Part shown: positions 20,993 to 62,647 of the stretch, in pieces
Layout of the letters: each line of letters starts with the position of its first letter
Position numbering within the stretch: position 1 is the first letter of the stretch
DNA from: Kiloniellales bacterium
Lineage (GTDB): Bacteria; Pseudomonadota; Alphaproteobacteria; Kiloniellales; JAKSDN01
Assembly: GCA_028280455.1 (NCBI GenBank)
Contig: JANQLT010000202.1
Location: 1 to 64,000 of the forward strand
Direction: 5' to 3'
DNA length: 64,000 nucleotides
Translations under genes and position numbers: made by a program
Notes under the pieces: model-generated
Databases searched by the model: none
What the model was told of the DNA's origin: nothing
The model's input: only the letters and a program-made list of their open reading frames with translations

Positions 20993-21036
20993 TGGCGTCC
21001 CCTAGGGGAGTCGAACCCCTGTTTTCGCCGTGAGAG
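20993..21036 (-). repeat. attL: Attachment-site copy 1 (3' end of tRNA-Glu)
   Basis: A 44-bp exact copy of the 3' part of tRNA-Glu(CUC), from the anticodon loop through CCA, in the same orientation as the intact gene at 62572. It has no 5' half, so it is an integration scar, not a gene. It marks the junction between host DNA and the first element. Confidence 0.93.
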
Positions 21037-21093
21037 AGGATCGGCTGCCGGTCAAGGAAGTTCAGTGGTCCTCGGAATCTGATATTCTTTTTC

Positions 21094-22752
21094 ATGAATT
21101 TATCCTTGATTCATCATTTTTCACAGGCTATAGGCGTATTTCAAGAGCGAGCGACAAACCGCCCCCTTTTTCAGATGAAGTCGCTGAGATTCATGGAATT
21201 CGAGCCTCTGCATCGGTTTTCAGGGCCAGTCACGGTATTTCACGATGTGCGCCTTCCTGAACGGGCCACCCCGGCCGGCTATGCCGCCCTTATAGACGCA
21301 TACGGATTGAGGGTTCCCCTCCCGCCAACGCTGTTCGCTACCGGCGAGCGGCACAGGATCCTCGAGAAAGCGGGTTGGCGAATCCTGACGCCGCGTCATG
21401 CCCCGCGCCCCACGCTGGAAGGCCACCTAACCTTCGCTCTCAAATACGAGGGGCTGGATCTTGCCGTCCTGAAGCGGCTGTTTCTCACCCTGGAGGCAGG
21501 TTCCCTCGAAACGATTGTGCAGGGCACGCCGACCGGCAGCTATGCCAGGCGCATCTGGTTTCTCTATGAATGGCTAACGGGACAGCGCCTCGATCTCGCG
21601 GGTGTTGGGCGCGGCAGCTATGTGCCGGCCGTCGATCCGAACCAGCAATGGGCGGTCCCCGGCGAGAATTCCCCCCGGCATCGGGTCAGAAATAACCTGC
21701 CGGGCACGCCGCTGTTTTGTCCTCTCGTCAGGCGGACGACTGCGCTCGAGGAGTTCGTGAAGCTCGATCTGGCCGCGCGGGCGCGCGCTGCCGCCGCCGC
21801 CGTGCCCGGTGATCTGCTGGCCCGCACGGCGGCCTTCCTGCTGCTCAAGGATTCGAAATCGAGCTACGCCATTGAAGGCGAGCGCCCACCGCAGGACCGG
21901 ATTCAGCGCTGGGGCCGCGCCATCGGCGAAGCGGGCCGTCATCCTATCGATCTCGACGAGTTGCTCCGCTTGCAGAGGCTCGTGATCGGCGATCGGCGAT
22001 TCGTGCATCTCGGTCTGCGCGCCGAAGGCGGCTTTGTCGGCGAGCATGATCGGGACACGGGCGCGCCCTTGCCCGATCACATCAGCGCCCGCCCGGAGGA
22101 TTTGTCCTCGCTTGTCGAGGGCATGGCGGCCTTCGACCGCCAGTCGGCGGGCGAGCTCGATCCCGTCATTGCGGCGGCCGCGCTGGCCTTCGGATTCGTC
22201 TACGCCCATCCGTTCGAGGACGGCAACGGCCGCATTCATCGCTACCTTGTTCATCACCTCTTGGCCAAGCGCGGATTCAATCCGCCGGGCGTCGTCTTTC
22301 CCATCTCCGCCGCCATCCTCGACCGGATCGATACCTACCGGGCCGTTCTGGAGAGCTACTCGCAGCGGCTCCTGCCGGTCGTCGAATGGCGGTCGACCGA
22401 GCGCGGTAACGTTCGGGTGCTGAACGATACGGCCGACTTCTACCGCTTCTTCGATGCGACCCGACAGGCGGAGTTCCTCTTTGGTTGTGTGCGCAGAACC
22501 ATCGAGGAAGACCTGCCGAAGGAGGCCGAATTTCTGCGGCGCTACGACCGATTCGCCCTACGCGTCCAGACCATCGTCGACATGCCTGACCGAACGAGCG
22601 ATCTGCTGTTCAGGTCTCTTCATCAGAATGATGGGCGCCTTTCCGGCCGGGCGCGCCGGGCCGAGTTTGAGGCGCTGACGGATCAAGAAGTGGGGCAAGT
22701 CGAGCGCCTCTACGCGGAGACGTTCGGGCCGCCGCCGGACATCACCGGGTAA
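21094..22752 (+). CDS. Fic-domain protein (probable AMP transferase)
   Basis: Up to 552 residues. The Fic motif HPFEDGNGRIHRYLVHH begins at His372 (numbered from 21094), with all core residues of the HPFx[D/E]GNGRxxR consensus, predicting transfer of AMP from ATP to hydroxyl side chains. An inhibitory-helix motif SYAIEG (S257xxxE261G262) lies before it, so the protein should be self-inhibited. The N-terminal ~200 residues look like the Fic-associated region; the C-terminal ~100 are helical. The start is unsure: ATGs at 21175 and 21193 are also possible and the first ATG lies inside an ATGAAT/ATTCAT inverted repeat. No antitoxin gene accompanies it. Confidence 0.88.
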   Translation: MNLSLIHHFSQAIGVFQERATNRPLFQMKSLRFMEFEPLHRFSGPVTVFHDVRLPERATPAGYAALIDAYGLRVPLPPTLFATGERHRILEKAGWRILTPRHAPRPTLEGHLTFALKYEGLDLAVLKRLFLTLEAGSLETIVQGTPTGSYARRIWFLYEWLTGQRLDLAGVGRGSYVPAVDPNQQWAVPGENSPRHRVRNNLPGTPLFCPLVRRTTALEEFVKLDLAARARAAAAAVPGDLLARTAAFLLLKDSKSSYAIEGERPPQDRIQRWGRAIGEAGRHPIDLDELLRLQRLVIGDRRFVHLGLRAEGGFVGEHDRDTGAPLPDHISARPEDLSSLVEGMAAFDRQSAGELDPVIAAAALAFGFVYAHPFEDGNGRIHRYLVHHLLAKRGFNPPGVVFPISAAILDRIDTYRAVLESYSQRLLPVVEWRSTERGNVRVLNDTADFYRFFDATRQAEFLFGCVRRTIEEDLPKEAEFLRRYDRFALRVQTIVDMPDRTSDLLFRSLHQNDGRLSGRARRAEFEALTDQEVGQVERLYAETFGPPPDITG

Positions 22753-22799
22753 GAGCCGGCAAAGCTGTGGGAGTGGGAGTGCTAACTGATTGAAACAAG

Positions 22800-22843
22800 T
22801 GGCGTCCCCTAGGGGAGTCGAACCCCTGTTTTCGCCGTGAGAG
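22800..22843 (-). repeat. Attachment-site copy 2 (3' end of tRNA-Glu), shared by both elements
   Basis: A second exact copy of the 44-bp tRNA-Glu 3' segment. It matches copy 1 for two more bases than it matches the intact tRNA. It separates the Fic mini-element from the large element and is the left attachment site of the latter. Confidence 0.93.
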
Positions 22844-22988: not shown

Positions 22989-24311
22989 ATGGCTCGCACT
23001 GTGCGAGATGCCAATCTCGAAACCCGGACAGCACGCTCGCGCCTCCTATCGAGAAAGAAGCCCTATTACCGGGTGATCGACCAAGGCTGTCACCTTGGCT
23101 ACTACAAGGGCGCCCGAGCCGCCTCTTGGAGTTCACGGTATTTCGTGGGTGGCGGGAGGTACGTCGAGATGACCCTCGGTTTGGCCGACGATGCTACGGA
23201 CGCCGATGGCATCAAAGTTCTTTCCTTCTCCCAGGCCCAGGCCAAGGCGCGGGAGTGGTTTGCGGAGCAGGCACGTGGGGCAGCCGGCGCCGAAAAGGTC
23301 GGGAAATACACGGTTAAGGACGCCTTGACCGACTATCAGGAGTGGCTCGATGTCGAGCGTCCGGACCGCAGCTTGCAGGTCAAGCGGGACATGCGGTGCC
23401 GGATTAAGGCGCTCATCGAGCCGGAGTTCGGCAAGACCGATGTTAGCAAGCTCACGACCCGAGCCATTCGGCGGTGGCATCTGAAGCTAGCTACGTCGCT
23501 GCCCCGTATGCGATCTCGCAGCGGTGCCCCTATCCGCTATCGGGATAACTCCAACGATCCGGAAGCTGAGCGAAAGCGAAGGCATAGCGCGAATCGCGTC
23601 CTGACCGTGCTGAAGGCCGCGCTGAACCATGCATGGCGCGAACGCAGAGTTCCAAATGATGACGCGTGGAGACGCGTTCGGCCGTTCCGGGAAGTGGATG
23701 CCGCCAGGATTCGCTACCTAACCGATGCAGAGAGCGTTCGGTTGGTGAATGCTTGCTCGTCAGATTTTCGTAAGCTTGTCCAAGCAGCCCTACTTACAGG
23801 GGGCCGGTACGGTGAGCTCATCTCGGCGCGCGCTTCCGATTTTGATGAGCGTGCTGGTTGCCTGCTTATCCGTCGCAGTAAGTCAGGAAAGCCTCGCCGC
23901 ATCGTATTGACGGAGGAGGGCATTGAGTTCTTCAGCCAGGTCTGTGCGGGCCGGTCTCCAGAAGAGCTAGCTCTCCTTCGCCACGACGGCAAAGCCTGGA
24001 ACCAATCCCATCAAATACGAAGGCTAAAAGATGCGTGCTCGGCGGCGAGGATAGAGCCCGCGGTTTCGTTCCATATCTTGCGGCACACCTACGCTTCGCG
24101 CCTTGCAATGAAAGGAACACCGCTCGCCGTCATAGCGGAACAGCTTGGCCACGCTGATACGAGAATGGTGGAGAAGCACTATGCGCATCTAGCTCCATCC
24201 TATGTAGCAGAAACTGTGCGTGCGAATTTCGGAAGGTTGGGAATTATCGAAACCGAGAACGTCGTGTCGCTGAGCGGCGAGGTCCATGCGCTCATAGGTC
24301 CGCCGCAGTGA
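22989..24311 (+). CDS. int: Tyrosine-type site-specific integrase
   Basis: A 440-residue phage-type integrase that should catalyse recombination at the tRNA-Glu att sites. The N-terminal ~105 residues form the arm-binding domain, ~110-190 the core-binding SAM-like domain, and the C-terminal catalytic domain holds Arg273 (TGGRYGELISAR), H362xxR365 (HILRHTY), the LGHADTRMVEKHY segment and nucleophile Tyr398. All catalytic residues are present, so it looks active. It is the first gene after the left att site and reads inward. Confidence 0.95.
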   Translation: MARTVRDANLETRTARSRLLSRKKPYYRVIDQGCHLGYYKGARAASWSSRYFVGGGRYVEMTLGLADDATDADGIKVLSFSQAQAKAREWFAEQARGAAGAEKVGKYTVKDALTDYQEWLDVERPDRSLQVKRDMRCRIKALIEPEFGKTDVSKLTTRAIRRWHLKLATSLPRMRSRSGAPIRYRDNSNDPEAERKRRHSANRVLTVLKAALNHAWRERRVPNDDAWRRVRPFREVDAARIRYLTDAESVRLVNACSSDFRKLVQAALLTGGRYGELISARASDFDERAGCLLIRRSKSGKPRRIVLTEEGIEFFSQVCAGRSPEELALLRHDGKAWNQSHQIRRLKDACSAARIEPAVSFHILRHTYASRLAMKGTPLAVIAEQLGHADTRMVEKHYAHLAPSYVAETVRANFGRLGIIETENVVSLSGEVHALIGPPQ

Positions 24312-24450
24312 CCCGGACCGGACGATTACGCCAATTTCCTCCACAGAAAATGGCCCTTCATTCTCCGTAGGGCGAGCACCCTTCAACACCTTTGGCCTTT
24401 ATGGTCTACTGAACCGCTTGCAGCCAAACCCACTCTGGAGATGCTGGGCA

Positions 24451-25245
24451 ATGAGATCGACTCCTCGGAATGTCTTGTCGGTTCTGCTCCTGGCTTCTTT
24501 ATCGCTTCTCGTAGCATGTAAGTCCGCTGCCGTTAGGCAGCCGGCTTTCAGGAGCAGCAGCATTAGCGACGCCCAAGCGATGCAGGAATTTGATCTCAAG
24601 GAATACCAAAGGCGCATTCGGCCGATTTATCCTTCTTCTTCCACTGCTCGAATTATCCCAGCAGGAAACATGGCCGACATTAGAGACTCTGCAAAATACG
24701 GCAGGCGTCCCCATACGGGATTGGATCTTGATTTGCGAGTGGGAGAAAGCGTGATTGCAGTGGTTCCTGGAAGGGCATGTGCCAATCACGACAAGCTGTT
24801 TGAGGAGACAGGTGGTAATTCGATCTGGCTGTTCCCGCGCATCACTCCCGAGGGCGGGCTGGAGAACGCTATTCAATGGGTCGAAAAACTGAAATTCGGG
24901 GAAGAGAGGACAACACTAGCGGTCAGGTATCTGCATCTATCACGGACTGTCATCCCTGAAGGCGAGTGTGAGTTTGTTCGAGTCGGGGACAAGCTGGGCG
25001 AAGTCGGGAACACGGGATATTCCGCCGGCCCTCATTTGCACTTTGACATCGTGCCATCTCAGAATTGGAAGAGAATTGAGGAAGGCCCAATGGAAGGAGC
25101 CATTAATCCACTCTTTGTGATGAGAAGGGAGCCAGGTCAACCGCTCGGAACGATCACGTGCTACGAACCTGGAATGACATATCGTCCGAATGCTGGTGAC
25201 CCACCCAATCAAATCAACATTGTTTGGCCAACAAGGAAGTGCTGA
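24451..25245 (+). CDS. M23-type metallopeptidase-like lipoprotein
   Basis: A 264-residue protein with a lipoprotein signal (VLLLASLSLLVAC, lipidated Cys near residue 23). The start at 24451 gives the signal peptide and has CTGGAG upstream. The M23 zinc-site motifs are present: RRPHTGLDLDL (HxxxD) near residue 88 and GPHLHFDIVP (HxH) near 195, plus RYLHLSR. It is predicted to cut peptidoglycan cross-bridges from a membrane-anchored position. Two further M23 homologues occur in this element. A tail of ~45 residues contains a Cys at the very end. Confidence 0.78.
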   Translation: MRSTPRNVLSVLLLASLSLLVACKSAAVRQPAFRSSSISDAQAMQEFDLKEYQRRIRPIYPSSSTARIIPAGNMADIRDSAKYGRRPHTGLDLDLRVGESVIAVVPGRACANHDKLFEETGGNSIWLFPRITPEGGLENAIQWVEKLKFGEERTTLAVRYLHLSRTVIPEGECEFVRVGDKLGEVGNTGYSAGPHLHFDIVPSQNWKRIEEGPMEGAINPLFVMRREPGQPLGTITCYEPGMTYRPNAGDPPNQINIVWPTRKC

Positions 25246-25313: not shown

Positions 25314-25553
25314 GTGCGGTCTATTCTGAGCAGGGGATCGCGCAAGGATTTTCCACTCCGGGTCATCAATCCTTATTTCCAGCCTGTCAAATCCACGGTG
25401 ATAATGCACCCGAATGCGGACGTTTGGGCAGGCACTTTTGTCGTAGTTTGGTGCAGGCTCCCAGCCAGGATTCAGAATCTCAACGGAACAGAGATTCTGT
25501 CCACTGAGGTGAGTTCAGGAGAGAGGGAGACGGGCAATGCAATCTCGCCGTAG
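25314..25553 (+). CDS. Possible small protein upstream of the Tat M23-like gene
   Basis: A possible 79-residue frame starting at GTG 25314, behind AAAGGGGG at about the right spacing. It overlaps the start of the next gene by 17 bases. The sequence has a plausible globular stretch (NPYFQPVKSTVIMHPNADVW) but no known domain. An alternative frame from TTG 25310 is also open. Low confidence; otherwise 25246-25536 holds only the promoter and leader of the next gene. Confidence 0.25.
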   Translation: MRSILSRGSRKDFPLRVINPYFQPVKSTVIMHPNADVWAGTFVVVWCRLPARIQNLNGTEILSTEVSSGERETGNAISP

Positions 25554-26268
25554 TTTCATCGTTTCGGGCGCTACGACCGTGCTCGCAATGCTGCTCGCTG
25601 CCGGCGCGAAGGCGAAAGACTACCACAATAAGGACGTGTTGCTCCCGCTGCTCAGAAGGGTCGTCCCAGTTTCCTATCCGACCGACGTCAAGATCGGTCG
25701 TATCCTTTCAGATTATCAGTCGATGGTAGGTGTAGATGGGAGAACTAGGCGTACGAAAACCGGTCCTAACCGTGGACCTGATTTTTCAGGAGATGTAGGT
25801 GATCCAGTGGTTGCTGCAGCTTCAGGACAAGCTGCATATAGATGGGCGAAGTATGGGGGACATACTGTTGACTTATTCCACAGCGCAAAATTCTTGTTTG
25901 AACCTGAACCTGGCAACGCCAGTTTGGTGATCCCTCTGACTATCGTTTCCATCTACAGTCACTTGGATACGAGTTTTGTGGATGTGGGGGAATTTCATGC
26001 TGATACTGGTAAGTTTAAATGGGTGAATCGAGGTGAACAGATTGGCACGGTAGGTTATTCCGGTAAGGGGGGAAACAGAAGGTATCCTCATGTCTCGTTT
26101 AGTGTGGGTACGAAGGGCCCAGATGATAGATGGGGTACTTGGTCTTACTTCAATCCACATCTACTTTGGGTAGATGGGCCGGGAAAGATCACGCCTTTCA
26201 TCGAGAGCAGAAGCTACGACGGTTGGAGACTGGTGTTCACGGCCCCAACGTTGCCAGTATCTCGATGA
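25537..26268 (+). CDS. Tat-exported M23-like protein with degenerate zinc site
   Basis: A 243-residue protein with a twin-arginine signal (QSRRSFIVSGA, hydrophobic run, cleavage near AKA at ~27). The remainder aligns by eye with the M23 protein at 42593: RRVVPVSYPTD, YSHLD, GTVGYSGKGG and FNPHLLWVDGPGKIT are shared. The metal site is lost, with NRGPD in place of HNGID and PHVSF in place of HLHF. It probably binds peptidoglycan or regulates a peptidase instead of hydrolysing. GGGAGACGGGC is a good ribosome binding site. Confidence 0.75.
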   Translation: MQSRRSFIVSGATTVLAMLLAAGAKAKDYHNKDVLLPLLRRVVPVSYPTDVKIGRILSDYQSMVGVDGRTRRTKTGPNRGPDFSGDVGDPVVAAASGQAAYRWAKYGGHTVDLFHSAKFLFEPEPGNASLVIPLTIVSIYSHLDTSFVDVGEFHADTGKFKWVNRGEQIGTVGYSGKGGNRRYPHVSFSVGTKGPDDRWGTWSYFNPHLLWVDGPGKITPFIESRSYDGWRLVFTAPTLPVSR

Positions 26269-26656: not shown

Positions 26657-26881
26657 CTATTCTCGCATTCCCTCAAGCCACGCGACAACATCATCTGCCA
26701 AGAACAGCGTCCTTCGGCCGGCCTTGGTAGCCCGCAACCTTCCCTGCCGAATCTCTTCATAGAGAAATGAACGTCCAATGGATGTGAGTTGCTGGAGCTC
26801 GGGAACACTGTACGCAGGCTTGGTGAGTAACTCCTGAAGGCCAGACCTCTCCTGGCGTACCGTTTGAGAGATTTCGATCAT
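26657..26881 (-). CDS. Excisionase-like helix-turn-helix protein
   Basis: A 74-residue winged-helix protein of the MerR/AlpA/excisionase class: AYSVPELQQLTSIGRSFLYEE forms the HTH, followed by GRLRATKAGRRTLFLADDV, the wing, and VVAWLEG. Such proteins direct integrase toward excision or repress element genes. A longer frame to 26998 overlaps the primase gene and is less likely. It is the last gene of the long leftward operon, 28 bases after the primase. It could be the recombination directionality factor for the integrase 2.3 kb away. Confidence 0.78.
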   Translation of the reverse strand: MIEISQTVRQERSGLQELLTKPAYSVPELQQLTSIGRSFLYEEIRQGRLRATKAGRRTLFLADDVVAWLEGMRE

Positions 26882-26909
26882 TGGCTTGCCTCTCAGGTTG
26901 AGCGCTGAT

Positions 26910-27959
26910 CTATCTGACGAGAGCATTCGCAATTGTCCGCCGAATGTAGAGTTCGCCTTTGCCGCTCGCGCGCACCGAACCCTTCGGAAACAGCGCAAGC
27001 ACCGTGGCTAATCCATCCAAATCCCGATATCCAATCTGCATTGCCCGCTTCACAAGGCTGTAGTCATATCCGGACCCGGACTGGTCGCTCCGCTCAGGCT
27101 TGCCCCGTCCCTCCCACAGTTCCTTGAGCTTACTGTCCCGGTGCAGGAGCCGCTGAAAGGACTCCGGAAGCTCGCCGCCAATGACTAGGCCTACCCTCCC
27201 GTACTGGCCACGAAGAGTGGCAGGGTACTCATCAGGCATCGCCATGTTCAGCAGGTAGTCGCGGAGCGCTTCATCCTCTACCCGCTCCCGACCGGGCCAT
27301 CGCGATACCGGACCATTTAGCTTTGCAGTCCCGTAAACCTTGAGCATTCTCCGGAGGTCCTGGGTCGTGTCCAGCTGCGCCTCAAGCCTGCTCAAGATGG
27401 CCTGGTGGTCCTGTCGCACCTCACTTGCGAACTTACTGAGCCTAGATGCTATGTCTGGAGCTTCGGACGTTGGTACCGCAGGATAGGCACACAGGACGTG
27501 CATTCCGTTGCCGCTATCCGCGATAGTTGGTTCTTCGAATCCAAGGTCAGAGAAGTAGCTCGGCATTTCGGTTTCGAGGTAGGTCGCAAGTTCGTTTTTC
27601 TGCTTCTGCCTGCTGCCGTCCCCAGGAATATCGAAGTCGAGAAGCAAGCTCTTGCTGACCACAATCTCATCCTCACGGGCTGCCCGTGCATACCCTCTCT
27701 CGTTCTTTAGGATTCCGGATCTCGGATTTAGTCCGATGCACACCATTCGTTCAGTTTGGTGCTTCTCAGCAAATCGGAGAACGTCAGCCTCTTGGCGTGC
27801 ATACCAAATGCGAGGGAACGCACTGTGCTCAAGATTATGCTCGTAGTTGTCCCGTCCCGCCTTGTAGGCGGGATGCACTGCAAGCAATTCTGAGTAGCAA
27901 TCACGGTGGTCTAGCCAGCGATAGCTTTCGCGCACATGTTGTTCGAGGAATCTTGCCAT
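26910..27959 (-). CDS. Archaeo-eukaryotic primase (PrimPol-like) protein
   Basis: A 349-residue protein with AEP-superfamily motifs: LLLDFDIPGD (metal-binding Asp108 and Asp110) and SGNGMHV (149-155, the sGxGxHh motif), then LKVYGTAKLNGPV, the third conserved region. The C-terminal ~80 residues are helical, as in primase C-terminal domains. Such proteins prime replication of plasmids and integrative elements. It lies between the PD-(D/E)XK-like gene and the excisionase-like gene in the operon. No separate helicase or origin was identified, although the HerA-type ATPase upstream might serve as translocase. Confidence 0.82.
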   Translation of the reverse strand: MARFLEQHVRESYRWLDHRDCYSELLAVHPAYKAGRDNYEHNLEHSAFPRIWYARQEADVLRFAEKHQTERMVCIGLNPRSGILKNERGYARAAREDEIVVSKSLLLDFDIPGDGSRQKQKNELATYLETEMPSYFSDLGFEEPTIADSGNGMHVLCAYPAVPTSEAPDIASRLSKFASEVRQDHQAILSRLEAQLDTTQDLRRMLKVYGTAKLNGPVSRWPGRERVEDEALRDYLLNMAMPDEYPATLRGQYGRVGLVIGGELPESFQRLLHRDSKLKELWEGRGKPERSDQSGSGYDYSLVKRAMQIGYRDLDGLATVLALFPKGSVRASGKGELYIRRTIANALVR

Positions 27960-27991
27960 CTTGCGATCTGGGAGATGTTGCCGCTCTAGCT

Positions 27992-28825
27992 TTAGAAATC
28001 TTGTAGTGCAGTCTTCCCTCGGCGCTTGCCAAAGAGACGTTTGACGAACGAGAACTCGGAAAGGAGGATGACCTTGACGCGTGCTCTTTGGATATGGCTA
28101 AGAACCTCGTCCAGCTGTGCTTCAATGGCTTGGCGTGCTCTCGCGTTCGTGCAGGCAACCAGCACATCAGAGAACCCGCTCATGAGGTCCTGCTGAACGT
28201 TCACTGCCGCGTTCTTCGGAGATAGCTCGACCTCCACCGCAATCGCGCGGCCACTCTTCAGAAAGCCAACGTCTGCCCGTTTTCCGTTGAGGGTCTTTTC
28301 AATCCGCGTTTCCAAACCCAGCGACCGGTAGTAGGCGCAGATGTTCCGCTGCCACCACCAATGTTCCGCGGAAACGTTCTCTGGCCTTGGCTGAGGCGCC
28401 AATCCCAGGACCCTACGTCCCGATGGGCTGAGGCCGAGAAGCTTCACCAGGCCCCCTGTCACTTGACCCAGATTAAGCGAGATTTCCTCCGCCAGACCGC
28501 GCTCTATCGCTTCTTTCTTCATCCGGTTGCTCTTGTCGGGCGAAAGAGCAAGGCGCTGCGCGCGTTGCGTCGTGGTGTCGTTCGGGAACTCCACAACGGA
28601 ATCAAGATAGAGGTGCAGGTCGTCGGACAGTGGTGAGGCGTCGGGTCCGGAAGTGCTACACCTCCGATCCGGGCCTACGTTCTCCTCGCTAGGCCTTCGC
28701 TCTTCGTTCTGCGCGCGATGGATCTCCGGAACTCGAGCAGGCACGACATGCCGCATCAGCTCAGCGATCGGCGCCTCGCGGACAACGGCCAGCTCCTCAT
28801 CGGTAACGTCTTTGCGGAACCGCAT
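27992..28825 (-). CDS. Protein with C-terminal PD-(D/E)XK-like domain
   Basis: A 277-residue protein. Residues 1-90 look mostly unstructured, ~95-150 are helical, and ~150-265 resemble a restriction-endonuclease fold: ETRIEKTLNGKRADVGFL then GRAIAVEVELSPKN, giving D-x(n)-ExE/K-like spacing, followed by alternating strands (DVLVACTN, VKVILLSEF). The final Lys of a classical ExK is not in place, so it may bind but not cut DNA. Replication-relaxation proteins that accompany HerA/VirD4-type ATPases in mobile elements have a comparable layout. It starts 2 bases after the membrane-protein gene. Confidence 0.55.
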   Translation of the reverse strand: MRFRKDVTDEELAVVREAPIAELMRHVVPARVPEIHRAQNEERRPSEENVGPDRRCSTSGPDASPLSDDLHLYLDSVVEFPNDTTTQRAQRLALSPDKSNRMKKEAIERGLAEEISLNLGQVTGGLVKLLGLSPSGRRVLGLAPQPRPENVSAEHWWWQRNICAYYRSLGLETRIEKTLNGKRADVGFLKSGRAIAVEVELSPKNAAVNVQQDLMSGFSDVLVACTNARARQAIEAQLDEVLSHIQRARVKVILLSEFSFVKRLFGKRRGKTALQDF

Positions 28826-28827
28826 GC

Positions 28828-29052
28828 CTAGTCTCTCTCTCCACGAGAGAAGAGAATCTTGATGATGCCCACCAAGGCGATGAGGTACGCGAGCCTCACG
28901 GCCAGATCGAACGCTGGCCTATTACCCGTACCCTCAAATTCTGGGATGTCTGCCAGACGAGAAAAGAGCTGCTCGACCGCGGGCACCAGGTTGAAGAAGT
29001 GCCCCAGCAAAATGATGACGATCCCAATGGCGATCACTCCGTAGGCATTCAT
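28828..29052 (-). CDS. Small two-helix membrane protein
   Basis: A 74-residue protein with two predicted transmembrane helices, GVIAIGIVIILLGHFF (~5-21) and LAVRLAYLIALVGIIKILF (~50-68), joined by an acidic loop. It lies 4 bases downstream of the HerA-type ATPase gene and 2 bases before the PD-(D/E)XK-like gene, so it is co-transcribed with both. It could anchor the ATPase at the membrane, as small partners do for VirD4-like proteins, but that is inference. Confidence 0.65.
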   Translation of the reverse strand: MNAYGVIAIGIVIILLGHFFNLVPAVEQLFSRLADIPEFEGTGNRPAFDLAVRLAYLIALVGIIKILFSRGERD

Positions 29053-29056
29053 TTCC

Positions 29057-30358
29057 CTACTCCAGCGGAATGCGTGGCGTGCGAATTAGGAAGGGATCCA
29101 CTTTTGGAATGCGGACGATTGCCTGGCCGACGTCCAGCTTCGGGATGTAGTCCGCTTGTTCCTTGGAGAGGGCCATCATCTTCCTTGCCCGGTCTATGTC
29201 GTTCCCGCTACCGAGCCGCATAACCATCTTGAGTCGCGAATTGACGAAGATGCTCTCGTTCACGTGCAAGGATTGGTTTGCGAATAGGATTCCTATTCCC
29301 GTCTCCCGAGCCATGCTGAGGATCGATGCGAGCGGAGGATGGCCAATGTTGTCATTGTAGCCCGGAGGAGCGGCCCACGCTCCTTCGTCGATCCCAATCA
29401 GGTTCCTTAACCCGGTGCCGCGTTGATTGGTTGCGATGCGGTAGAGGAACAAGAGATAAAGCAGGAATGTCATGACGAAGCGCGCGTGCCGTTCGCTCAG
29501 CCCCTTGACCTCCAAGACGAACGTCATCTCGGCAAGCTTGTCGATGGGAAAGCCGCGTCTGAATGAATAGGTTCGGGGGCTTGTGAGTAGATACGACTCA
29601 AGCCTAGTGATGATGGAATCCCGAAAGCCAGCAGGACGGCTACCGCCCTTGATGACGTATCCTTTGAGCTTCTCCAGAAGGTCAGCCAGTGTCGGATAGT
29701 CGGTGCCGCCGTCGAATATGCCCCGTTCCAGATAGAGTTCGTTCACAGCCTTCAGCAGGAGTGCTTCTGCACCGTCCAGGAGATTGTTGGTCTTACAGAA
29801 GATCGTTACGAACATGATGAGGTGCTGCTTCGGGCCGATGGGCGCATGCACCTCCAGCGGGTTCACGATGAGGTGGTCAACCGCATCCAGAACCATGATT
29901 TCCGGATTTATGCGATACAGGTGCCGATAGTCCTGCTTATCCCTATCGAATATCCAAACTGGAATGCCGTGGCGCATCGTTTGCAGGAATGTGCTCGTCA
30001 GGAAGTTAGACTTCCCAGAGCCGGACGCTCCTATATTGCAGCCATGCTGCATTAGCAGAGAGAGTGGGTAGGGCACGGGCACCTCAATGCGTTCAGCCTC
30101 TCCGAGAAGCAGGCATCTCCTGTCGTCGACAGGCAGCAGGTCAGCCGGCATTGGAGGCTTGAACGGTATCTGCTGTAGGAGTTGTCGTGTCGCCTCTGGC
30201 TGAAGAATCTGGACTATCTTGCTCGCCAGGCGTTCATCTCCAGCCACGGCTGCTGCGAGAATGGCTCGTTTGACCGCTGGGTCGCGGTCGAGGTTCGCGC
30301 TCTCGGCCAGTTCGAGCATCGTTTCAGCAGGAACTAGCGCTCTTGCCCGGGAGAGCAT
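29057..30358 (-). CDS. HerA/VirD4-type DNA-translocase ATPase
   Basis: A 433-residue P-loop ATPase of the HerA/FtsK superfamily. Walker A is GASGSGKSN (110-118), Walker B LIGIDEGAW near 320-330, followed by SMARETGIGILFANQSL, the sensor region typical of HerA and VirD4 coupling proteins. The N-terminal ~75 residues are helical. It probably forms a hexamer that moves DNA or protein. The ATG directly follows the stop of the zinc-ribbon gene, with AAGGAG nine bases ahead. Its place directly downstream of ubiquitin-like pathway genes is unusual and central to the interest of this operon. Confidence 0.82.
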   Translation of the reverse strand: MLSRARALVPAETMLELAESANLDRDPAVKRAILAAAVAGDERLASKIVQILQPEATRQLLQQIPFKPPMPADLLPVDDRRCLLLGEAERIEVPVPYPLSLLMQHGCNIGASGSGKSNFLTSTFLQTMRHGIPVWIFDRDKQDYRHLYRINPEIMVLDAVDHLIVNPLEVHAPIGPKQHLIMFVTIFCKTNNLLDGAEALLLKAVNELYLERGIFDGGTDYPTLADLLEKLKGYVIKGGSRPAGFRDSIITRLESYLLTSPRTYSFRRGFPIDKLAEMTFVLEVKGLSERHARFVMTFLLYLLFLYRIATNQRGTGLRNLIGIDEGAWAAPPGYNDNIGHPPLASILSMARETGIGILFANQSLHVNESIFVNSRLKMVMRLGSGNDIDRARKMMALSKEQADYIPKLDVGQAIVRIPKVDPFLIRTPRIPLE

Positions 30359-30781
30359 CTAGTTGAACTCCTTCGACAGCAGGCCATGCAGGGAGGCTAG
30401 TCCTCTCAGGATGCATCTCTGGCATGCCACGATGATGCGGCACCGCGGGCAGTAGGGAATGGCCTCGAAGACACGCGCGCGCTCCGGAGAAATGATGCGG
30501 AAGCAGCGACTGCACCGAACGTTACATTGCCAGCAGAGCCATTTTCCAGTGAGGGCGCAGCGTGCGGTTATCGCACCTGGCTGATAGACGAGGTGCCCGC
30601 AATCCGCATGGTGGACGGCATGTTCTGCAACCGTCTCTATGCCCTCCTCGTCGAACGTCTCCTCCGTGACCTCAAAGCTTGGGCCGCATTCATCCAGCGG
30701 ACGCTGCACGAAGCGCCTTCTCTCGCTGTGGAGCGGTCTGCGATATCTAGGAAAGGCAAAGAGTCCATCGTTCCACGACAT
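30359..30781 (-). CDS. Cysteine-rich zinc-ribbon protein in the Ubl operon
   Basis: A 140-residue protein. The C-terminal half contains repeated Cys pairs and one His-Cys set: HHADCGH, TARC, WLCWQCNVRCSRC, PYCPRC and ACQRC, enough for two or three zinc sites in a B-box/ribbon- or RING-like arrangement. The start at 30781 is preferred because GAGGGGG precedes it; a GTG at 30796 is in frame. RING- or ribbon-type proteins act as E3 or adaptors in ubiquitin pathways, but nothing in the sequence proves that here. Confidence 0.68.
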   Translation of the reverse strand: MSWNDGLFAFPRYRRPLHSERRRFVQRPLDECGPSFEVTEETFDEEGIETVAEHAVHHADCGHLVYQPGAITARCALTGKWLCWQCNVRCSRCFRIISPERARVFEAIPYCPRCRIIVACQRCILRGLASLHGLLSKEFN

Positions 30782-30792
30782 GGCAAGCCCCC

Positions 30793-31233
30793 TCACACTC
30801 CAGGAAAGCGAGGGAACATGGCACCGAGGCCTGGTACAGTGCTCATTGGATTGTTGTGGGGCTCGCGGAGTGGCGCGGGAGATGGCTGTTGGAGATTCGG
30901 CTGCTGCATTTCATGCGGCCCGCCGACTGGGTGCCCTGCCCCACTTGCCGCACGGGCAGCATCCACGTTTTGCTGGTCGGCTGCCGTGTTGATGCCTCCG
31001 CCACCCTGGAGGATGTCGATGCCTTCCGACACCTGATGGCGATGAAAAACCTCCTCAGCCCGCGCCAGGTCCAGGATCGGGTCAGTCACGAGGCATGCCA
31101 TCGGCTGCTGCACCGCCAAATCAGTTGGCTGCTTCTTGAGCGGTGCTGGTGATTTGAAATGGGCAAGCGGATCCAAAGCACGCTTTCTCGGCCGTCTCCG
31201 CCATTCCGGAAGGGCCTGCTCAAAGAGCTTCAT
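30793..31233 (-). CDS. Pro/Gln/Gly-rich, largely disordered protein in the Ubl operon
   Basis: A 146-residue protein whose ATG overlaps the stop of the E1-like gene (ATGA), so translation is coupled. The N-terminal 40 residues are basic, a short helical section (TDPILDLARAEEVFHRHQ) follows, and the last ~70 residues are low-complexity and rich in Pro, Gln, Asn and Gly. No domain is recognised. It could be a conjugation target, scaffold or adaptor. It is not an artefact: start coupling, strand and tight spacing to the next gene all fit the operon. Confidence 0.6.
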   Translation of the reverse strand: MKLFEQALPEWRRRPRKRALDPLAHFKSPAPLKKQPTDLAVQQPMACLVTDPILDLARAEEVFHRHQVSEGIDILQGGGGINTAADQQNVDAARAASGAGHPVGGPHEMQQPNLQQPSPAPLREPHNNPMSTVPGLGAMFPRFPGV

Positions 31234-32018
31234 TCTTTGCCTCCAACAGACTTCAAGTGGCTGCATAGTGGGCAGTCCGCCCTCCTCTCGATGGAGAGGC
31301 ACGCGTCCGGCACTGAGCCATCGAGGAACACCGAACGGAGGTTCCATTCGCGGTGCCTGTCGCAAAGGACGGTGTCGACGGCATAGACGACAAAGCCCGC
31401 GAGCACCTGCAGCACGTCAACAATTCCGGGCAGGTTGCACGGATAAGACTCATCGTTCAGCGCATGAGGGAACATGCAGCCGAAACACGCATTGCCGGAC
31501 TCTTGGATGGCGCAATAGAGCTGGTTCGCATCTCGGGAGACTGCCGCGTGCACGACGGGAATGCTATGAGTAAGCCCGTACTTCGCGACCGCAACCCGAG
31601 TCGGGTTGTTGTCCACGCCGCAGACAATGACGTCGCAATGCTCTAACGAGACCCCTTCCTCGAGGAGTTCTTGGAAACGGTACGGCCAGCATATGATTTT
31701 TGTTTCAAAGAGACATTCACGAGAAAGACGCCTGCCAAGCGCAACAGCCTTGTTCTTTCCGATGTCTCGTTTGACGAACTGCTGATGCGGCAGATTGCGC
31801 TCTTCAACGCTATCGTCATCCATTAGTCCGATTACACACGGTCCCTTCCATGCGAGAGCACAGGCAACATTGCTTCCAATCCCTCCCGCTCCGACTCCCA
31901 GAATAGTTGAGCCTTGATACCGGGCTAGATCAAAGCCACTGACCTTTCCCTGGGAGAAGTTGACCTGCTCCCACTGTGCCTTTGGCAGCGGCTTCGTCCT
32001 GAAAACTCTCGGCTTCAC
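31230..32018 (-). CDS. E1-like (ThiF/MoeB family) ubiquitin-like-activating enzyme
   Basis: A 262-residue adenylyltransferase. The Gly-rich nucleotide loop GVGAGGIGSNVA starts at 41, MDDDSVEERNLPHQQF (66-81) matches the ATP/Mg region, and DIGKNKA follows. CFGC (178-181) and CPLC (249-252) form the structural zinc site. Cys194 in PCNLPGIVDVLQVLAG lines up with the catalytic Cys of MoeB/ThiF-type proteins, so thioester formation is possible. The GTG start overlaps the JAB stop codon (GTGA). It would adenylate the C-terminus of the Ubl encoded two genes upstream and pass it to the E2-like protein. Confidence 0.85.
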   Translation of the reverse strand: MKPRVFRTKPLPKAQWEQVNFSQGKVSGFDLARYQGSTILGVGAGGIGSNVACALAWKGPCVIGLMDDDSVEERNLPHQQFVKRDIGKNKAVALGRRLSRECLFETKIICWPYRFQELLEEGVSLEHCDVIVCGVDNNPTRVAVAKYGLTHSIPVVHAAVSRDANQLYCAIQESGNACFGCMFPHALNDESYPCNLPGIVDVLQVLAGFVVYAVDTVLCDRHREWNLRSVFLDGSVPDACLSIERRADCPLCSHLKSVGGKE

Positions 32019-32767
32019 AGCTCTTCTCCGACGTCGAACACGCGAAAGAGCTTCTCCATGGGTTCGTCAAGGAGTGTTTCTGCCCCATTCCCGTACACGT
32101 CCAATTCGAAGGGCTTCCACGTCGAGAAGAGCCGCACATAGCCATCCAGCGAGAAGATTCCGCCAATCGCGTCGCAGCCAAGCTTCACAAAACGCTCCTG
32201 GTTGGCGATGTCTGTGCTGGAAGGCTTGGTAATCTCCGGACCGTCCCCCATGTGAGAATGAAACATCGCGAGCAGCTGGTGCCCATGGTGCTCTGTAAGG
32301 GAGACGATGGCGTAGTGCGCCTTCCTCTCATCGGCGCACACATAGGCAGCGCTCTGCTGCTCAAGAGGCACTTTCACCATGCGGCTCAAGATGCGCAGCC
32401 CATCCGCAGTTACCGAGCCAGTGATGAGGGCAAGGCGTTCTCTATTGTCGGGATCGGAAGGCAGGTATTCGAGGCACTCACGCAGGAACAGCGTGGAAAC
32501 TTGGCATCGAATAATCTCCTGTGCCGCGGTTGCTGCGTGTCCCCTTGTCTGGCCGCTAGCTATCTCTTTGAGAGCTTGCCTAGCCCGTGCGAGGATGATG
32601 AGCGAATCAATCTCTTCGTGAGCTCGCTTCCCACAATCCTCATTTGGCTCTTCCAGGTCAGAAACCAGATTCCGTAGCCGGTCGCGGAACTCCTCGTCTA
32701 AGCCCAGGCCGAGCCGCTTCACGAGTTCCGATGCATTGGGTTTCTTTTGGAAAGGAAGTAGACGCAT
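32015..32767 (-). CDS. JAB/MPN-domain metallopeptidase (deubiquitinase-like)
   Basis: A 250-residue protein. The N-terminal ~85 residues are helical; the C-terminal JAB domain has the JAMM zinc motif H170SH172 followed by PSSTD (Ser183/184, Asp186), with Glu110 upstream as candidate catalytic Glu. The spacing between HxH and SxxD is three residues longer than in classical JAMM, as in some bacterial JABs. It should process the Ubl precursor or remove conjugated Ubl. The ATG at 32767 has GGAG inside the end of the E2-like gene as its ribosome binding site. The E1-like gene overlaps its stop. Confidence 0.85.
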   Translation of the reverse strand: MRLLPFQKKPNASELVKRLGLGLDEEFRDRLRNLVSDLEEPNEDCGKRAHEEIDSLIILARARQALKEIASGQTRGHAATAAQEIIRCQVSTLFLRECLEYLPSDPDNRERLALITGSVTADGLRILSRMVKVPLEQQSAAYVCADERKAHYAIVSLTEHHGHQLLAMFHSHMGDGPEITKPSSTDIANQERFVKLGCDAIGGIFSLDGYVRLFSTWKPFELDVYGNGAETLLDEPMEKLFRVFDVGEEL

Positions 32768-32768
32768 G

Positions 32769-33158
32769 CTATCGCTCCATCTCGAAGCTCTCGCAGAGAA
32801 TCTGCTCGACATAGAAAATGATGGAATCGATGTCCTTGCCCCGTGGGTTTAGGGAGAGATTGATTTCGTAGATGCCTTTCCTCTTCCAGTAGAAGCAGAC
32901 CCAGCGGGAGTGCTGCTTGAGCTGGTCGGTCGGCGGATTATGGATGTAGACCCGAAATCGGTCGCCTCGCCGTTGGATGGAGCCCTTCCACGCTCCGTAG
33001 CGCGTGCGGTAGTAGCCGCTATAGCCCTTACCATCCTTCATCCAGCCCCGCTTGACGTGCAGGGGAGTGGTATTAGGCCGCACGACCGGCGCACGGAGAG
33101 AAGGCGGCCGTTGGTGTTGCCCCCGTCCTCTTCCGTGCAACCAGCTAAACACTGACAT
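32769..33158 (-). CDS. E2-like protein (candidate ubiquitin-like conjugating enzyme)
   Basis: A 129-residue protein. After a basic, Pro-rich N-terminal ~35 residues comes a compact region with the order expected of bacterial E2-like folds: strands (GYSGYYRTRYGAWKGSI, DRFRVYIHN), a PP turn, then QHSRWVCFYW with His83 and candidate catalytic Cys88, a final strand and a C-terminal helix (DSIIFYVEQILCESF). The identification rests on this pattern and on lying between Ubl and JAB genes. Start chosen at 33158 with GAGAGGTG upstream, right after the Ubl stop. Confidence 0.62.
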   Translation of the reverse strand: MSVFSWLHGRGRGQHQRPPSLRAPVVRPNTTPLHVKRGWMKDGKGYSGYYRTRYGAWKGSIQRRGDRFRVYIHNPPTDQLKQHSRWVCFYWKRKGIYEINLSLNPRGKDIDSIIFYVEQILCESFEMER

Positions 33159-33169
33159 AGCGACACCTC

Positions 33170-33439
33170 TCACACGCGGCCCGCGTCGACGCGGGAGGTG
33201 ACGAAGAGAAGGTCTCCATCCCGGATTTGGCCGTAAACGGGTTCGTCGTGCCCAAAGACAGAATCCGGGGTTCCGCGTGAGATTTGGAACTCATTAGTCA
33301 GCCCCAACCGGGTCAGGATGTCCGCTGCTGTCGTCCCCGGTGTGATGAAAGCTGACGAGGTATGGCCGCCACCCGCGGCCTTGATGCTAACAAGTTTGCC
33401 GGCGTGGGGTGCATTGCCCTGAACGATTTCGGCTTCCAT
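33170..33439 (-). CDS. Ubiquitin-like beta-grasp protein
   Basis: An 89-residue protein. The first ~15 residues are an extension; then KLVSIKAAGGGHTS (strands 1-2), TPGTTAADILTRLGL (helix 1) and QIRDGDLLFVTSRVDAGRV (last strand and tail) give the beta-grasp pattern with the typical DGD turn. The tail ends DAGRV, so two residues follow the last Gly, a candidate processing site for the JAB peptidase. The ATG at 33439 has AAGGAAG at ideal spacing; a GTG two codons earlier is in frame. It precedes the E2-like gene with an 11-base gap. Confidence 0.68.
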   Translation of the reverse strand: MEAEIVQGNAPHAGKLVSIKAAGGGHTSSAFITPGTTAADILTRLGLTNEFQISRGTPDSVFGHDEPVYGQIRDGDLLFVTSRVDAGRV

Positions 33440-33458
33440 ATCCACTTCCTTTCTCCGC

Positions 33459-33695
33459 CTAGAACGGCAAGCGCTCTTCCTCTTCTCGCTTCCGGTCGAG
33501 GACTCGCTTCCTGAACGCTTGCAGGTCGTCCTGAAACTCCGGAAACTCCTGCAGCTCGACCATGAGATCGTCTACGTGTCGTTTGGCGCTCGCGAGCACG
33601 TCCTCCGGCCGACGCCTTCTCTTAGTCCTCTTGGAAGTTGCCGATTGACCGCTGTTTCTGGTTAGTTCAGGCCCTGTTGTCTTCTGCGTATCCAA
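33459..33695 (-). CDS. Small helical protein, first gene of the Ubl operon
   Basis: A 78-residue protein starting at TTG 33695 behind a strong AAAGGAG site at six bases. The N-terminal third is Thr/Ser/Lys-rich, then RTKRRRRPEDV is strongly basic, and the rest is a charged amphipathic helix (HVDDLMVELQEF, FRKRVLDRKREEEER). No known domain. It may be a DNA-binding or scaffold protein for the module. It starts the 12-gene leftward run, 19 bases ahead of the Ubl gene. Confidence 0.6.
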   Translation of the reverse strand: MDTQKTTGPELTRNSGQSATSKRTKRRRRPEDVLASAKRHVDDLMVELQEFPEFQDDLQAFRKRVLDRKREEEERLPF

Positions 33696-37157: not shown

Positions 37158-38360
37158 CTACAGTCGAAGCAGCTCCTCTCCTAGACCGCTAGCTCGAATT
37201 CGCTGCGCCACATCCTTCAGGAAGGTTTCATCCTTGAGTAGCTCCGACAAGAACCTGTCTGTGTCACTGCGCTTGTGCAGCTGCTCCTGAAGGCTGTTGC
37301 ATTGGGACTCTAAACGGGAAACCGCAAGCTTCAGCTCTTGGTTCTCCTGCGTAGCCTGGCTCAAGCCATCGCCTCGTATGGATGCGATCGCGTCCTCTTC
37401 AACGACCCCAACCCGGTTGATGTAGCGGTCCGGCATGTCAGAGCTCATGGCCCAGCCCATGATCTTGCACATCTGATAGCGGCCAACCTTCTTGGAGGCT
37501 AGCCACGTAGCGAGACTGTCACGAATCAGTTGCGGACCGATCGGCTTTCCGAGGGCTCGCATGCCCACGCGCCTGAGGAACTTCAACAAGGCCTCATACC
37601 CCATCGGAAACAGCTGCTCCTCCGAGTTGTCAGGACTGGGATGCTGCGCCAGCCACTGTCGAAGGAGGTGAGCGCCCTCATGCACGGGTAAGCTCCTCCG
37701 GAAGGTTTTCGGGTGCTCGATGCCGACGATGAAATGGGAGCCCTTGTCTTCTGCATGGCCAACCCGGATGTTGAGAAACTCTTCGGCGCGAGCCCCCGTC
37801 TCGAACAGCGTCCATACGAGCGCTTTTCCTTTGGCCGTACTAGCGAACTCGCTGCACTTTCGGATTTCATCCACGGACAAGCTTCCAGGAGGCGGTTCCG
37901 TGATGCTCGTGTCAATCCATGCAACGAGGTCCGGGTACTGCTTCCCATTCCCGAGGAGCCATTTGTAGAACTTCTTCACGCAAACCTTGATGTCCCGGCG
38001 GGTCCACGCCGAGTAGGTTATCGATTGGCTGTCCGCGTCAGTCAGCGCATTCGCATCGATGTGAGATATGAACCGGTCCATGGCCGGCTGCGTCACCTTC
38101 TTCAGGTCCTCATTTCCGAGCCAGGACGAGACCCGCGGCAACAAATAGAGATACTTGAGAAGGCGCTTCTCCTGAATGCGCTTCCGTTGCCTGGTGAAGA
38201 TCGTCTTCCCCAGATGGCATGCGCGGACGAATTCGAGGATGTATCGCTTGTTGACCTCGGAGATGCTCTTGTCCTGCTCCAGGTTCTCCAGGCGGCGCAC
38301 GTAGGCCTGTGCGCAGCGATGCACATCGATCTTCGTTTGAGCGCGCGAGACCATAGCCAT
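37158..38360 (-). CDS. Second tyrosine recombinase, with C-terminal coiled coil
   Basis: A 400-residue tyrosine-recombinase-fold protein. Catalytic elements: Arg in FETGARAEEFLNIR (~190), QLIRDSLATWLASK (~275), where the Arg of HxxR is kept but the His is not, and DMPDRYINR with the candidate nucleophile Tyr (~312). The HxxR and LGH-type histidines are replaced, as in some archaeal-type and diverged bacterial members. The last ~65 residues form a coiled coil (ENQELKLAVSRLESQCNSL). GGAGGTATTGA precedes the ATG. It may resolve element dimers or control replication; it is unlike the integrase at 22989. Confidence 0.8.
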   Translation of the reverse strand: MAMVSRAQTKIDVHRCAQAYVRRLENLEQDKSISEVNKRYILEFVRACHLGKTIFTRQRKRIQEKRLLKYLYLLPRVSSWLGNEDLKKVTQPAMDRFISHIDANALTDADSQSITYSAWTRRDIKVCVKKFYKWLLGNGKQYPDLVAWIDTSITEPPPGSLSVDEIRKCSEFASTAKGKALVWTLFETGARAEEFLNIRVGHAEDKGSHFIVGIEHPKTFRRSLPVHEGAHLLRQWLAQHPSPDNSEEQLFPMGYEALLKFLRRVGMRALGKPIGPQLIRDSLATWLASKKVGRYQMCKIMGWAMSSDMPDRYINRVGVVEEDAIASIRGDGLSQATQENQELKLAVSRLESQCNSLQEQLHKRSDTDRFLSELLKDETFLKDVAQRIRASGLGEELLRL

Positions 38361-42592: not shown

Positions 42593-43381
42593 ATGATGGA
42601 GACCCCGTCCCTGGAAGCCAGATTGGAGCATGCAGACAGAAACCAGCGGCTGTCACGTCGCGAATTCCTAGCGGCGGGAGCTGCCGCTGCCTTAACCGCG
42701 GCAGCCGACTCGTCTATCGCCAATGCTGCCTCCGAACCCAGCAAAGAGGATATTCTCCGCTATCTGAGGCGCCGCGTTCCTGTTACCTATGTAGACAGCG
42801 AACTACCGCGGGTCGGTTCCGATTACCGGTCAACGCGTGCCCTCAACGGTAAGCGCCGATCAGGTGGGCTGCACAATGGCATCGATATGGCGCAGCCGTA
42901 TGGGACACCGGTAGTTGCTGCTGCTCCGGGTTGGGCTCGAAACGTTCGGACACCGCAAGGCGGGTTGCGCGTTGAGGTCTACCACGAGCAGAAACTCTAT
43001 CTGGACACCGATGGGGCGGGCGAGACCTACAGAGTTTCGGTACCGCTGTCGATTCTAACGACCTATGCCCATCTTTCCCGAAGTGAGATACCGCAGGACT
43101 ACGTCGGTAAGAAACACCTGTGGGTCAAGCGTGGCGACGTGATTGGCGCCGTCGGCCGCTCTGGCTCGTGGTCAGGCGATGTTACGCACCTGCATTTCGG
43201 CGCTCATACCAAGGGGCCCTATAGCCGCTGGGATGTATGGAAGGATATCAACCCGCACCTGCTGTGGGCGGATGGCCCCGGAAAGGTGACAAGGTACGAT
43301 CCATCACGCACCTACTCGGAACGAGCCGTAGAGCTTACGTACCCTCTGAACCCCATTCCGGCCAACGTGAGCAAAGTTTAG
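42593..43381 (+). CDS. Tat-exported M23-family metallopeptidase
   Basis: A 262-residue protein with a twin-arginine signal: a 19-residue polar lead, SRREFLAAGAAAALTAAA, cleavage near SIANA. The peptidase domain keeps both zinc motifs, GLHNGIDMA (HxxxD) and THLHFGAH (HxH), plus TYAHLS, so it should be an active periplasmic endopeptidase on peptidoglycan. It is a close relative of the degenerate copy at 25537 (shared RRVPVTY, HLLWADGPGKVT). Tat export is unusual for this family. It lies 45 bases before the TPR gene in the same direction, and shares a promoter region with the XRE gene. Confidence 0.83.
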   Translation: MMETPSLEARLEHADRNQRLSRREFLAAGAAAALTAAADSSIANAASEPSKEDILRYLRRRVPVTYVDSELPRVGSDYRSTRALNGKRRSGGLHNGIDMAQPYGTPVVAAAPGWARNVRTPQGGLRVEVYHEQKLYLDTDGAGETYRVSVPLSILTTYAHLSRSEIPQDYVGKKHLWVKRGDVIGAVGRSGSWSGDVTHLHFGAHTKGPYSRWDVWKDINPHLLWADGPGKVTRYDPSRTYSERAVELTYPLNPIPANVSKV

Positions 43382-47769: not shown

Positions 47770-48081
47770 ATGAAGGACGAACTCACCGACGAAGACTTCT
47801 TCAAGAAATACGGAGCTTTCGAGAACCAGAGCGCGGAAGAGTTTCTGGCGAAGTTCAACTCCTCCAAGGCCGAGCTCCGCGAGCTGATCGACCACCTCAT
47901 TCAGCATCGTCAGCTCCTGCGGGACGCTGAGATAGAGTGTCTCGAGCGTGAGGCACAGCGGCTTGTAGAGCGCCTGAAGGAGAACAAGGTCGCTATCCTC
48001 GTCGAGGAGATTGACTGCCTGAAGGACATCCTGGCTCTGCAGAAAGAACGCTCACGCTCGAATGACGAACCGAGATACTGA
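47770..48081 (+). CDS. Coiled-coil partner of the second HerA-type ATPase
   Basis: A 103-residue, almost wholly helical protein (LTDEDFFKKYGAFENQSAEE, then long heptad-like helices through ALQKERSRS). Its last 20 bases overlap the start of the ATPase gene, so the two are translated together and probably form a complex. No enzymatic motif. Confidence 0.6.
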   Translation: MKDELTDEDFFKKYGAFENQSAEEFLAKFNSSKAELRELIDHLIQHRQLLRDAEIECLEREAQRLVERLKENKVAILVEEIDCLKDILALQKERSRSNDEPRY

Positions 48082-62571: not shown

Positions 62572-62615
62572 TGGCGTCCCCTAGGGGAGTCGAACCCCTG
62601 TTTTCGCCGTGAGAG
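62572..62615 (-). repeat. attR: Attachment-site copy 3, inside the intact tRNA-Glu gene
   Basis: The 44-bp att core in its complete tRNA context. It covers the anticodon loop through the encoded CCA end, so integration kept the tRNA whole. Confidence 0.92.
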
Positions 62616-62647
62616 GGCGATGTCCTAGGCCACTAGACGAAGGGGAC
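62572..62647 (-). tRNA. tRNA-Glu (anticodon CUC)
   Basis: A 76-base gene including encoded CCA. Acceptor stem GTCCCCT pairs with AGGGGAC, the D arm is GTCT-AGTGGCCT-AGGAC, the anticodon stem TCGCC/GGCGA encloses loop CTCTCAC (anticodon CTC, reads GAG), and the T arm is AGGGG-TTCGACT-CCCCT. It is the integration target of both elements on its 3' side. Confidence 0.96.

Follow-up and report, generated by a model that had tools for sequence, protein, structure and literature searches.

A candidate ubiquitin-like cassette shares an operon with HerA, primase-like and excisionase genes in an alphaproteobacterial integrative element

Introduction

Those bacterial ubiquitin-like (Ubl) pathways for which a role has been demonstrated, Bil and the cyclic-oligonucleotide-based anti-phage signalling systems (CBASS), serve immunity; for Bub and PRTRC no role is settled. 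PRTRC clusters bring a ThiF-family protein together with a JAB protein and small partners on mobile DNA. In the 6d operons, a Ubl, a helical protein, an E2-like protein, a JAB and an E1 occur as a set; an E1 encoded next to a JAB is what typifies bacterial E1/JAB operons, and such Ubl clusters are described as highly mobile (accessible part of Iyer et al. 2006, PMC1779556). The 6d E2s (same part of PMC1779556) and BilB (PMC11354881) share His residues downstream of the Cys, and BilA is a two-domain, ISG15-like protein (PMC11354881). Here we analyse a 64,000-nucleotide stretch of a Kiloniellales bacterium (contig JANQLT010000202.1, positions 1 to 64,000; hereafter the window), in which a leftward operon combines an E1/JAB pair and candidate Ubl and E2-like genes with genes for a HerA-type ATPase, a primase-like protein and an excisionase-type DNA-binding protein, all inside an integrative element inserted in tRNA-Glu.

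Results

The original prediction described twelve leftward genes forming one operon, and this was borne out. All twelve minus-strand open reading frames are present between 26657 and 33695 (Table 1), the G+C content of third codon positions (GC3) exceeds that of second positions (GC2) in every one of them (GC3 0.59-0.73, GC2 0.35-0.50; least marked in the Pro-rich and helix-turn-helix (HTH) genes), and the junctions mostly measure -4 to +4 nt, two of them being wider gaps of 13 and 32 nt. The E1, Pro-rich, zinc and HerA genes are tightly coupled by ATGA overlaps and a 0-nt gap. One start had to be corrected, in that the Pro-rich gene begins at ATG 31233, which has GGAGG upstream and overlaps the E1 stop as ATGA, and not at TTG 31365. 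Internal ATG codons are probably the true starts of the E2-like, JAB and zinc protein genes (Table 1), and ATG 26926 is possibly that of the HTH gene, which would reduce the 89-nt overlap with the preceding primase-like gene that results from reading it from TTG 26998. A promoter scan 5' of the first gene returned nothing clearly exceeding chance.

The E1-like protein is firmly assigned, on its sequence, to the ThiF-fold adenylyltransferases. Its best alignments are with ThiF and MoeB, and against E. coli ThiF (1zud) it keeps the nucleotide-binding glycines (GAGGIG), the Cys at the active-site position and both zinc-binding CxxC pairs (CxxC, CPLC). It carries no rhodanese or E2 fusion and no further domain, and models of E1-E2 fusions match its adenylation domain weakly only. 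Directly adjoining its gene is that of a protein with the JAMM-type motif HSHMGDGPEITKPSSTD (pattern HxHx(10)SxxD), which matches Prok-JAB at E=0.0048 with 17.2 bits, under the cut-off of 25; motif and sub-threshold match together make a JAB identity moderately well supported.

The two proteins encoded ahead of this pair are likely, judging from position, size and residue pattern, to be a Ubl (91 aa) and an E2-like protein (134 aa), both being without a family match in Pfam, NCBIfam or PHROG. For the Ubl candidate, the best sequence match in the PDB is MoaD2/ThiS, at E=1, and a three-sequence MoaD/ThiS profile scored it no better than its own shuffles. A single-sequence AlphaFold2 model arranges its strands in the order b-b-a-b-b-b, as in the beta-grasp fold, at a mean predicted local distance difference test (pLDDT) score of only 44.6; the protein has no terminal GG. 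In the E2-like candidate the Cys lies within HSRWVCF, with a His ahead of it. This protein had no meaningful PDB match, and its single-sequence AlphaFold2 model (mean pLDDT 63.9) had no UBC match among the matches listed. Foldseek/VIA searches with these low-confidence models of the two proteins returned low-scoring unrelated folds only.

At the junction with the distal half lies the cysteine-rich zinc protein, in which nine Cys/His residues are invariant with respect to a relative described below. It is probably binuclear, and its Cys spacing looks nearer to LIM than to RING; an E3-like role is possible because weak RING matches were obtained (TRIM69 at 0.021 and Arkadia at 0.065, with Prok-RING_1 at 0.66 for the relative). 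The following gene encodes what can firmly be called a HerA ATPase: a two-row profile matches the SsoHerA structure at E=3.3e-12 over the RecA-like core, PADLOC mad8 is matched at 2.6e-13 and DUF87 at E=2.6e-4, just under cut-off, and the Walker A and B motifs read GASGSGKS and LIGIDE. Elsewhere the element encodes another HerA-type ATPase (48062-49408, plus strand; 448 aa; PADLOC mad8 6.9e-16), which shares 24-25% identity with that of the operon and whose gene is preceded and overlapped by a 103-aa gene.

In the nuclease-like protein, which matched no family and has no recognisable NurA, DUF4297 or SIR2 domain, the residues D185, E198 and K204 (D-x12-E-x5-K) are invariant in the relative. 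The archaeo-eukaryotic-primase-like (AEP-like) protein was assigned by motif, with no profile, family or PDB match, and its key residues are invariant in both sequences (DFD/DID, SGNGMH/TGRGYH, DLRRM..YGTAK). The last gene of the operon is firmly predicted to encode an excisionase-type DNA-binding protein (Table 1).

The relative is found on contig JAEULB010000027.1 (G236:C9) of a Rhodospirillaceae metagenome-assembled genome (G236, 88% complete), which belongs to a different order of the Alphaproteobacteria. Genes for the zinc, HerA, membrane, nuclease-like and AEP-like proteins stand there in identical order and on one strand, with identities of 42, 39-40, 32, 40 and 45%, respectively, the HerA aligning along its full length. 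A tyrosine integrase gene, its product only distantly related (24% identical) to the window's integrase, follows after about 1.2 kb. The contig begins within the zinc gene, whose frame stays open as far as base 1 and whose alignment sets in at residue 21 of the shorter form, so that the genes upstream of it cannot be read.

The unit is rare within the data searched. The JAB (289 genomes of the class) and a HerA profile (61 genomes of the order and 398 of the phylum) found the window only, and an AEP profile (385 genomes of the class) found the window and G236 only; the E1 had one more weak match among the 398 genomes of the phylum (G558; 26%, E=5.7e-20, one in-frame stop). Across 72,556 plasmids, tblastn gave no match to the E2-like, JAB, AEP-like or nuclease-like protein, nor was the E2-like protein matched in phages. 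E1 matches in plasmids, phages and genomes were weak (26-35%) and, where annotated, were ThiF/MoeB; none of the four plasmid regions opened around them shows the context of the operon. Similarly, none of six regions opened around plasmid HerA matches (E. coli, Acinetobacter, Rhodococcus, Streptomyces, Priestia, Lactococcus) has an annotated E1, JAB or E2. On the E. coli and Lactococcus plasmids (L038, L043), distant HerA relatives share a common order of two dynamin-family genes, one or more hypothetical genes, a gene for an ATPase of about 1080 aa and an HNH nuclease gene, in what looks like a defence operon. Eight scans of viral contigs with HerA, E1, AEP, nuclease-like, JAB, E2 and zinc protein queries found no relative, these scans using short peptide patterns that reach mainly close relatives.

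Against this background, the identities originally proposed for the E1, HerA and excisionase-like HTH proteins stand firmly and that of the JAB moderately; the AEP and PD-(D/E)XK calls are carried by motifs, and the Ubl and E2-like proteins found neither a family nor a fold match. The proposal of full Ubl conjugation built into a replication/translocation operon holds as far as a ThiF-type E1 beside a JAMM protein, accompanied by HerA, AEP-like and excisionase genes in an integrative element, the Ubl and E2-like components being candidates. As for the expected conservation of gene order, the alignments indicate that linkage is conserved for the distal half only.

The operon sits inside a 39.8-kb integrative element, 22800-62615, inserted in tRNA-Glu. 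These borders are drawn because the 44-bp 3' end of tRNA-Glu(CTC) is repeated exactly, in direct orientation, at the left end, because the tyrosine integrase gene lies immediately inside this left repeat (Table 1), and because a perfect 26-bp repeat is found close to either inner end, at 22951 and at 62514, where the pair would fit integrase arm sites. The operon occupies a stretch of lower G+C content, about 0.50-0.59 as opposed to 0.61-0.74 leftward. A third exact copy of the 44 bp lies at 20993-21036, and the 1.8 kb between it and the left border (20993-22800), which contains a Fic-family gene (21094-22752; NCBIfam Fic E=5e-5), is apparently a second, smaller insertion in tandem at the same tRNA-Glu site.

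Elsewhere in the element, a second tyrosine recombinase gene lies near its middle (37158-38360, minus strand). Plus-strand genes within 49992-58856 encode a 2107-aa TPR protein, which by eye starts like a restriction endonuclease, and a SIR2_2 protein of 745 aa, both of them probable defence genes; adjoining the tRNA end of the element (59524-62322, minus strand) is the gene for a TrlF-family AAA-like ATPase (NCBIfam, 544 bits, above cut-off), which is related to the anti-phage protein Ppl. The element also carries three M23 peptidase paralogues (24418-25245, 25537-26268 and 42593-43381, plus strand), two of them 37% identical, an unusual cargo that could be of use in cell-wall passage. The product of 44860-45639 (minus strand) terminates in a Hint (intein-like) autoprocessing domain whose last residues are VVHNTK, the match being below cut-off.

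Table 1. Genes of the operon and features marking the left and right ends of the element
Feature	Coordinates	Strand	Length	Remarks
Charged, probably helical protein (first gene)	33459..33695	-	78 aa	TTG start, AAGGAG upstream; no convincing family match
Candidate ubiquitin-like protein	33170..33445	-	91 aa	Ends VDAGRV; no family match
Candidate E2-like protein	32769..33173	-	134 aa	129 aa from probable start ATG 33158
JAB/JAMM metalloprotease-like protein	32015..32812	-		Helical N-terminal extension; probable start ATG 32767
E1-like adenylyltransferase	31230..32018	-	262 aa	ThiF PF00899 5.1e-25
Pro/Gln-rich protein	30793..31233	-	146 aa	No family match
Cysteine-rich zinc protein	30359..30796	-		Probable start ATG 30781; LIM/RING-like spacing
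HerA/FtsK-type DNA-translocating ATPase	29057..30358	-	433 aa	HerA structure match
Membrane protein	28828..29052	-	74 aa	Two helices (judged from sequence); relative in same place
PD-(D/E)XK-like nuclease candidate	27992..28825	-	277 aa	D-x12-E-x5-K motif
Archaeo-eukaryotic-primase-like protein	26910..27959	-	349 aa	DFD, SGNGMH, DLRRM..YGT motifs
HTH_17/excisionase-like DNA-binding protein (last gene)	26657..26998	-		HTH_17 1.9e-10; phrog_66 (excisionase) 4.4e-8
Left attachment repeat	22800..22843	none	44 bp	Identical to tRNA-Glu 3' end
Right attachment repeat	62572..62615		44 bp	Within tRNA-Glu(CTC) 62572-62647 (-)
Tyrosine integrase, left end of element	22989..24311	+		Phage_integrase 4.3e-25

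Discussion

The reading that we tentatively favour is that the distal half of the operon is the core by which the integrative element translocates and replicates its DNA, and that it is transcribed together with a 6d-like Ubl cassette whose targets are probably proteins that handle DNA. The distal half is taken as such a core because an integrase lies nearby in either element and because, in the window, an excisionase closes the operon. Further points in favour of the reading are the close coupling of the genes, the E1 directly beside a JAMM protein, the element borders given by the repeats, and the recurrence of the distal gene order in the relative. Excisionase and integrase would excise the element, the primase would initiate its replication, and HerA, as a ring anchored to the membrane, would pump or process DNA together with its partner nuclease. 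In the Ubl half, the JAB could trim the Ubl to its C-terminal Gly, whereupon the E1 would adenylate it and the E2-like protein transfer it, with the JAB also removing the tag again; the targets would most likely be proteins of the same operon or host replication and repair proteins. The zinc protein, encoded where the two halves meet, might serve as an adaptor or E3-like factor, and tagging could then switch the element between a silent state and one in which it replicates or moves. The more far-reaching form of this proposal, that a complete pathway (Ubl, E1, E2 and JAB, possibly with a zinc-finger E3) is built into the core operon and that reversible tagging regulates HerA translocation, replication by the primase, or excision, we consider doubtful.

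Several observations weigh against the reading of a 6d-like cassette acting on a DNA-handling core. The beta-grasp and UBC folds of the Ubl and E2-like proteins are unproven, candidate assignments, and the E2-like translation has no His after the Cys of HSRWVCF, unlike the E2s reported from bacteria. The distal half has one relative only, and the two halves are seen joined only in the window; in the 88% complete genome of that relative, the E1 found one weak (28%) ThiF/MoeB-like gene and the JAB found nothing. Of the element proteins that were scanned, a subset of its open reading frames, none was recognised as a relaxase or as part of a type IV secretion system, so that transfer of the element is not evident. 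Finally, the element also carries defence-like genes, among them the TrlF/Ppl-like and SIR2 genes.

It is perceivable instead that the whole operon serves defence against phages or plasmids, with HerA and the nuclease-like protein as effector and with Ubl conjugation either activating this effector or tagging proteins of the invader. Defence ranks as the main rival because the pairing of HerA with a nuclease is established in defence systems (HerA-DUF4297; accessible part of PMC11291478), because Ubl conjugation is employed by Bil and CBASS, and because of the defence-like cargo just mentioned; moreover, the HerA of the operon matches PADLOC mad8 and some of its plasmid relatives stand in the defence-like dynamin/HNH operons. 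However, an AEP-like protein and a terminal excisionase beside an integrase, together with an integrase that again lies close to the AEP-like gene in the relative, fit element maintenance better, and the operon shows no match to known HerA-defence partners. We regard defence as rather unlikely, albeit the strongest competitor.

Alternatively, the operon could consist of two functionally separate modules that are neighbours and no more, with a mobile Ubl cassette having landed upstream of the core operon while keeping targets of its own. The distal half alone has been seen to recur, no E1 or JAB partner is recognisable in the genome of the relative, which weakly favours absence of the Ubl half from it, and Ubl clusters are described as highly mobile (accessible part of PMC1779556). 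Such a chance neighbourhood would, however, have to account for the tight coupling that runs from the E1 through the Pro-rich and zinc genes to HerA, and because the relative's contig breaks off within the zinc gene, it does not demonstrate that the Ubl half is missing there. We judge this explanation unlikely. That the E1 and Ubl form a sulphur-carrier system of the ThiS/MoaD type rather than a protein conjugation pathway is most improbable: the E1 does align best with ThiF and MoeB and the E2-like call is weak, but there are no cofactor-biosynthesis genes in the operon, a JAB stands beside the E1, and the Ubl candidate lacks the terminal GG.

If the favoured reading, a Ubl cassette acting on the DNA-handling core of the element, were confirmed, it would suggest that a ubiquitin-style switch controls mobile DNA. 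With a Ubl cassette placed in the core replication/translocation operon of an integrative element, a role outside immunity of this kind would become directly testable, and it might explain why Ubl cassettes occur repeatedly on plasmids and integrative elements.

Comparison with known systems

In the openly licensed literature we found no described operon that joins Ubl conjugation with HerA, a primase and an excisionase. The HerA-NurA, HerA-DUF4297 and SIR2-HerA systems resemble the operon in that a HerA ATPase adjoins a candidate nuclease, but in the partner here no NurA, DUF4297 or SIR2 domain is recognisable, and a primase-like protein and an excisionase are added. Setting the operon apart from PRTRC and Bil, as in the original prediction, and from CBASS was upheld on the features compared, namely ThiF score, Ubl size and gene content. 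With PRTRC the operon has in common a ThiF-family protein, a JAB, small partners and mobile DNA, yet its E1 reaches 36.6 bits against a cut-off of 144.75 for PRTRC_ThiF (TIGR03736), its other proteins match no PRTRC model, and no ParB-like gene was recognised in it. With Bil and the Cap2/Cap3 proteins of type II CBASS it shares the logic of E1, candidate E2-like protein, JAB and candidate Ubl. However, the Ubl candidate is a single domain of 91 aa as opposed to the two-domain BilA, and the CEHH motif of BilB is not present; relative to type II CBASS, the E1 is not fused to an E2 as it is in Cap2, and no CD-NTase was recognised in the operon.

The closest known systems are the 6d operons, with which the comparison extends as far as the accessible part of Iyer et al. 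(PMC1779556) describes them. The JAB N-terminal domain, which has conserved Arg and Trp in 6d, is here without the Trp (none in residues 16-130), the E2-like protein lacks the downstream His, and HerA, AEP-like and excisionase genes, which that part does not mention for 6d, are joined to the cassette. Because of these differences in the N-terminal domain of the JAB and in the His of the E2, we do not file the operon as a member of this group. It would nevertheless work like one. It is similarly composed of individual genes, namely for a small candidate Ubl whose Gly is near-terminal, a candidate E2-like protein, an N-terminally extended JAB, a rhodanese-free E1 and a helical protein.

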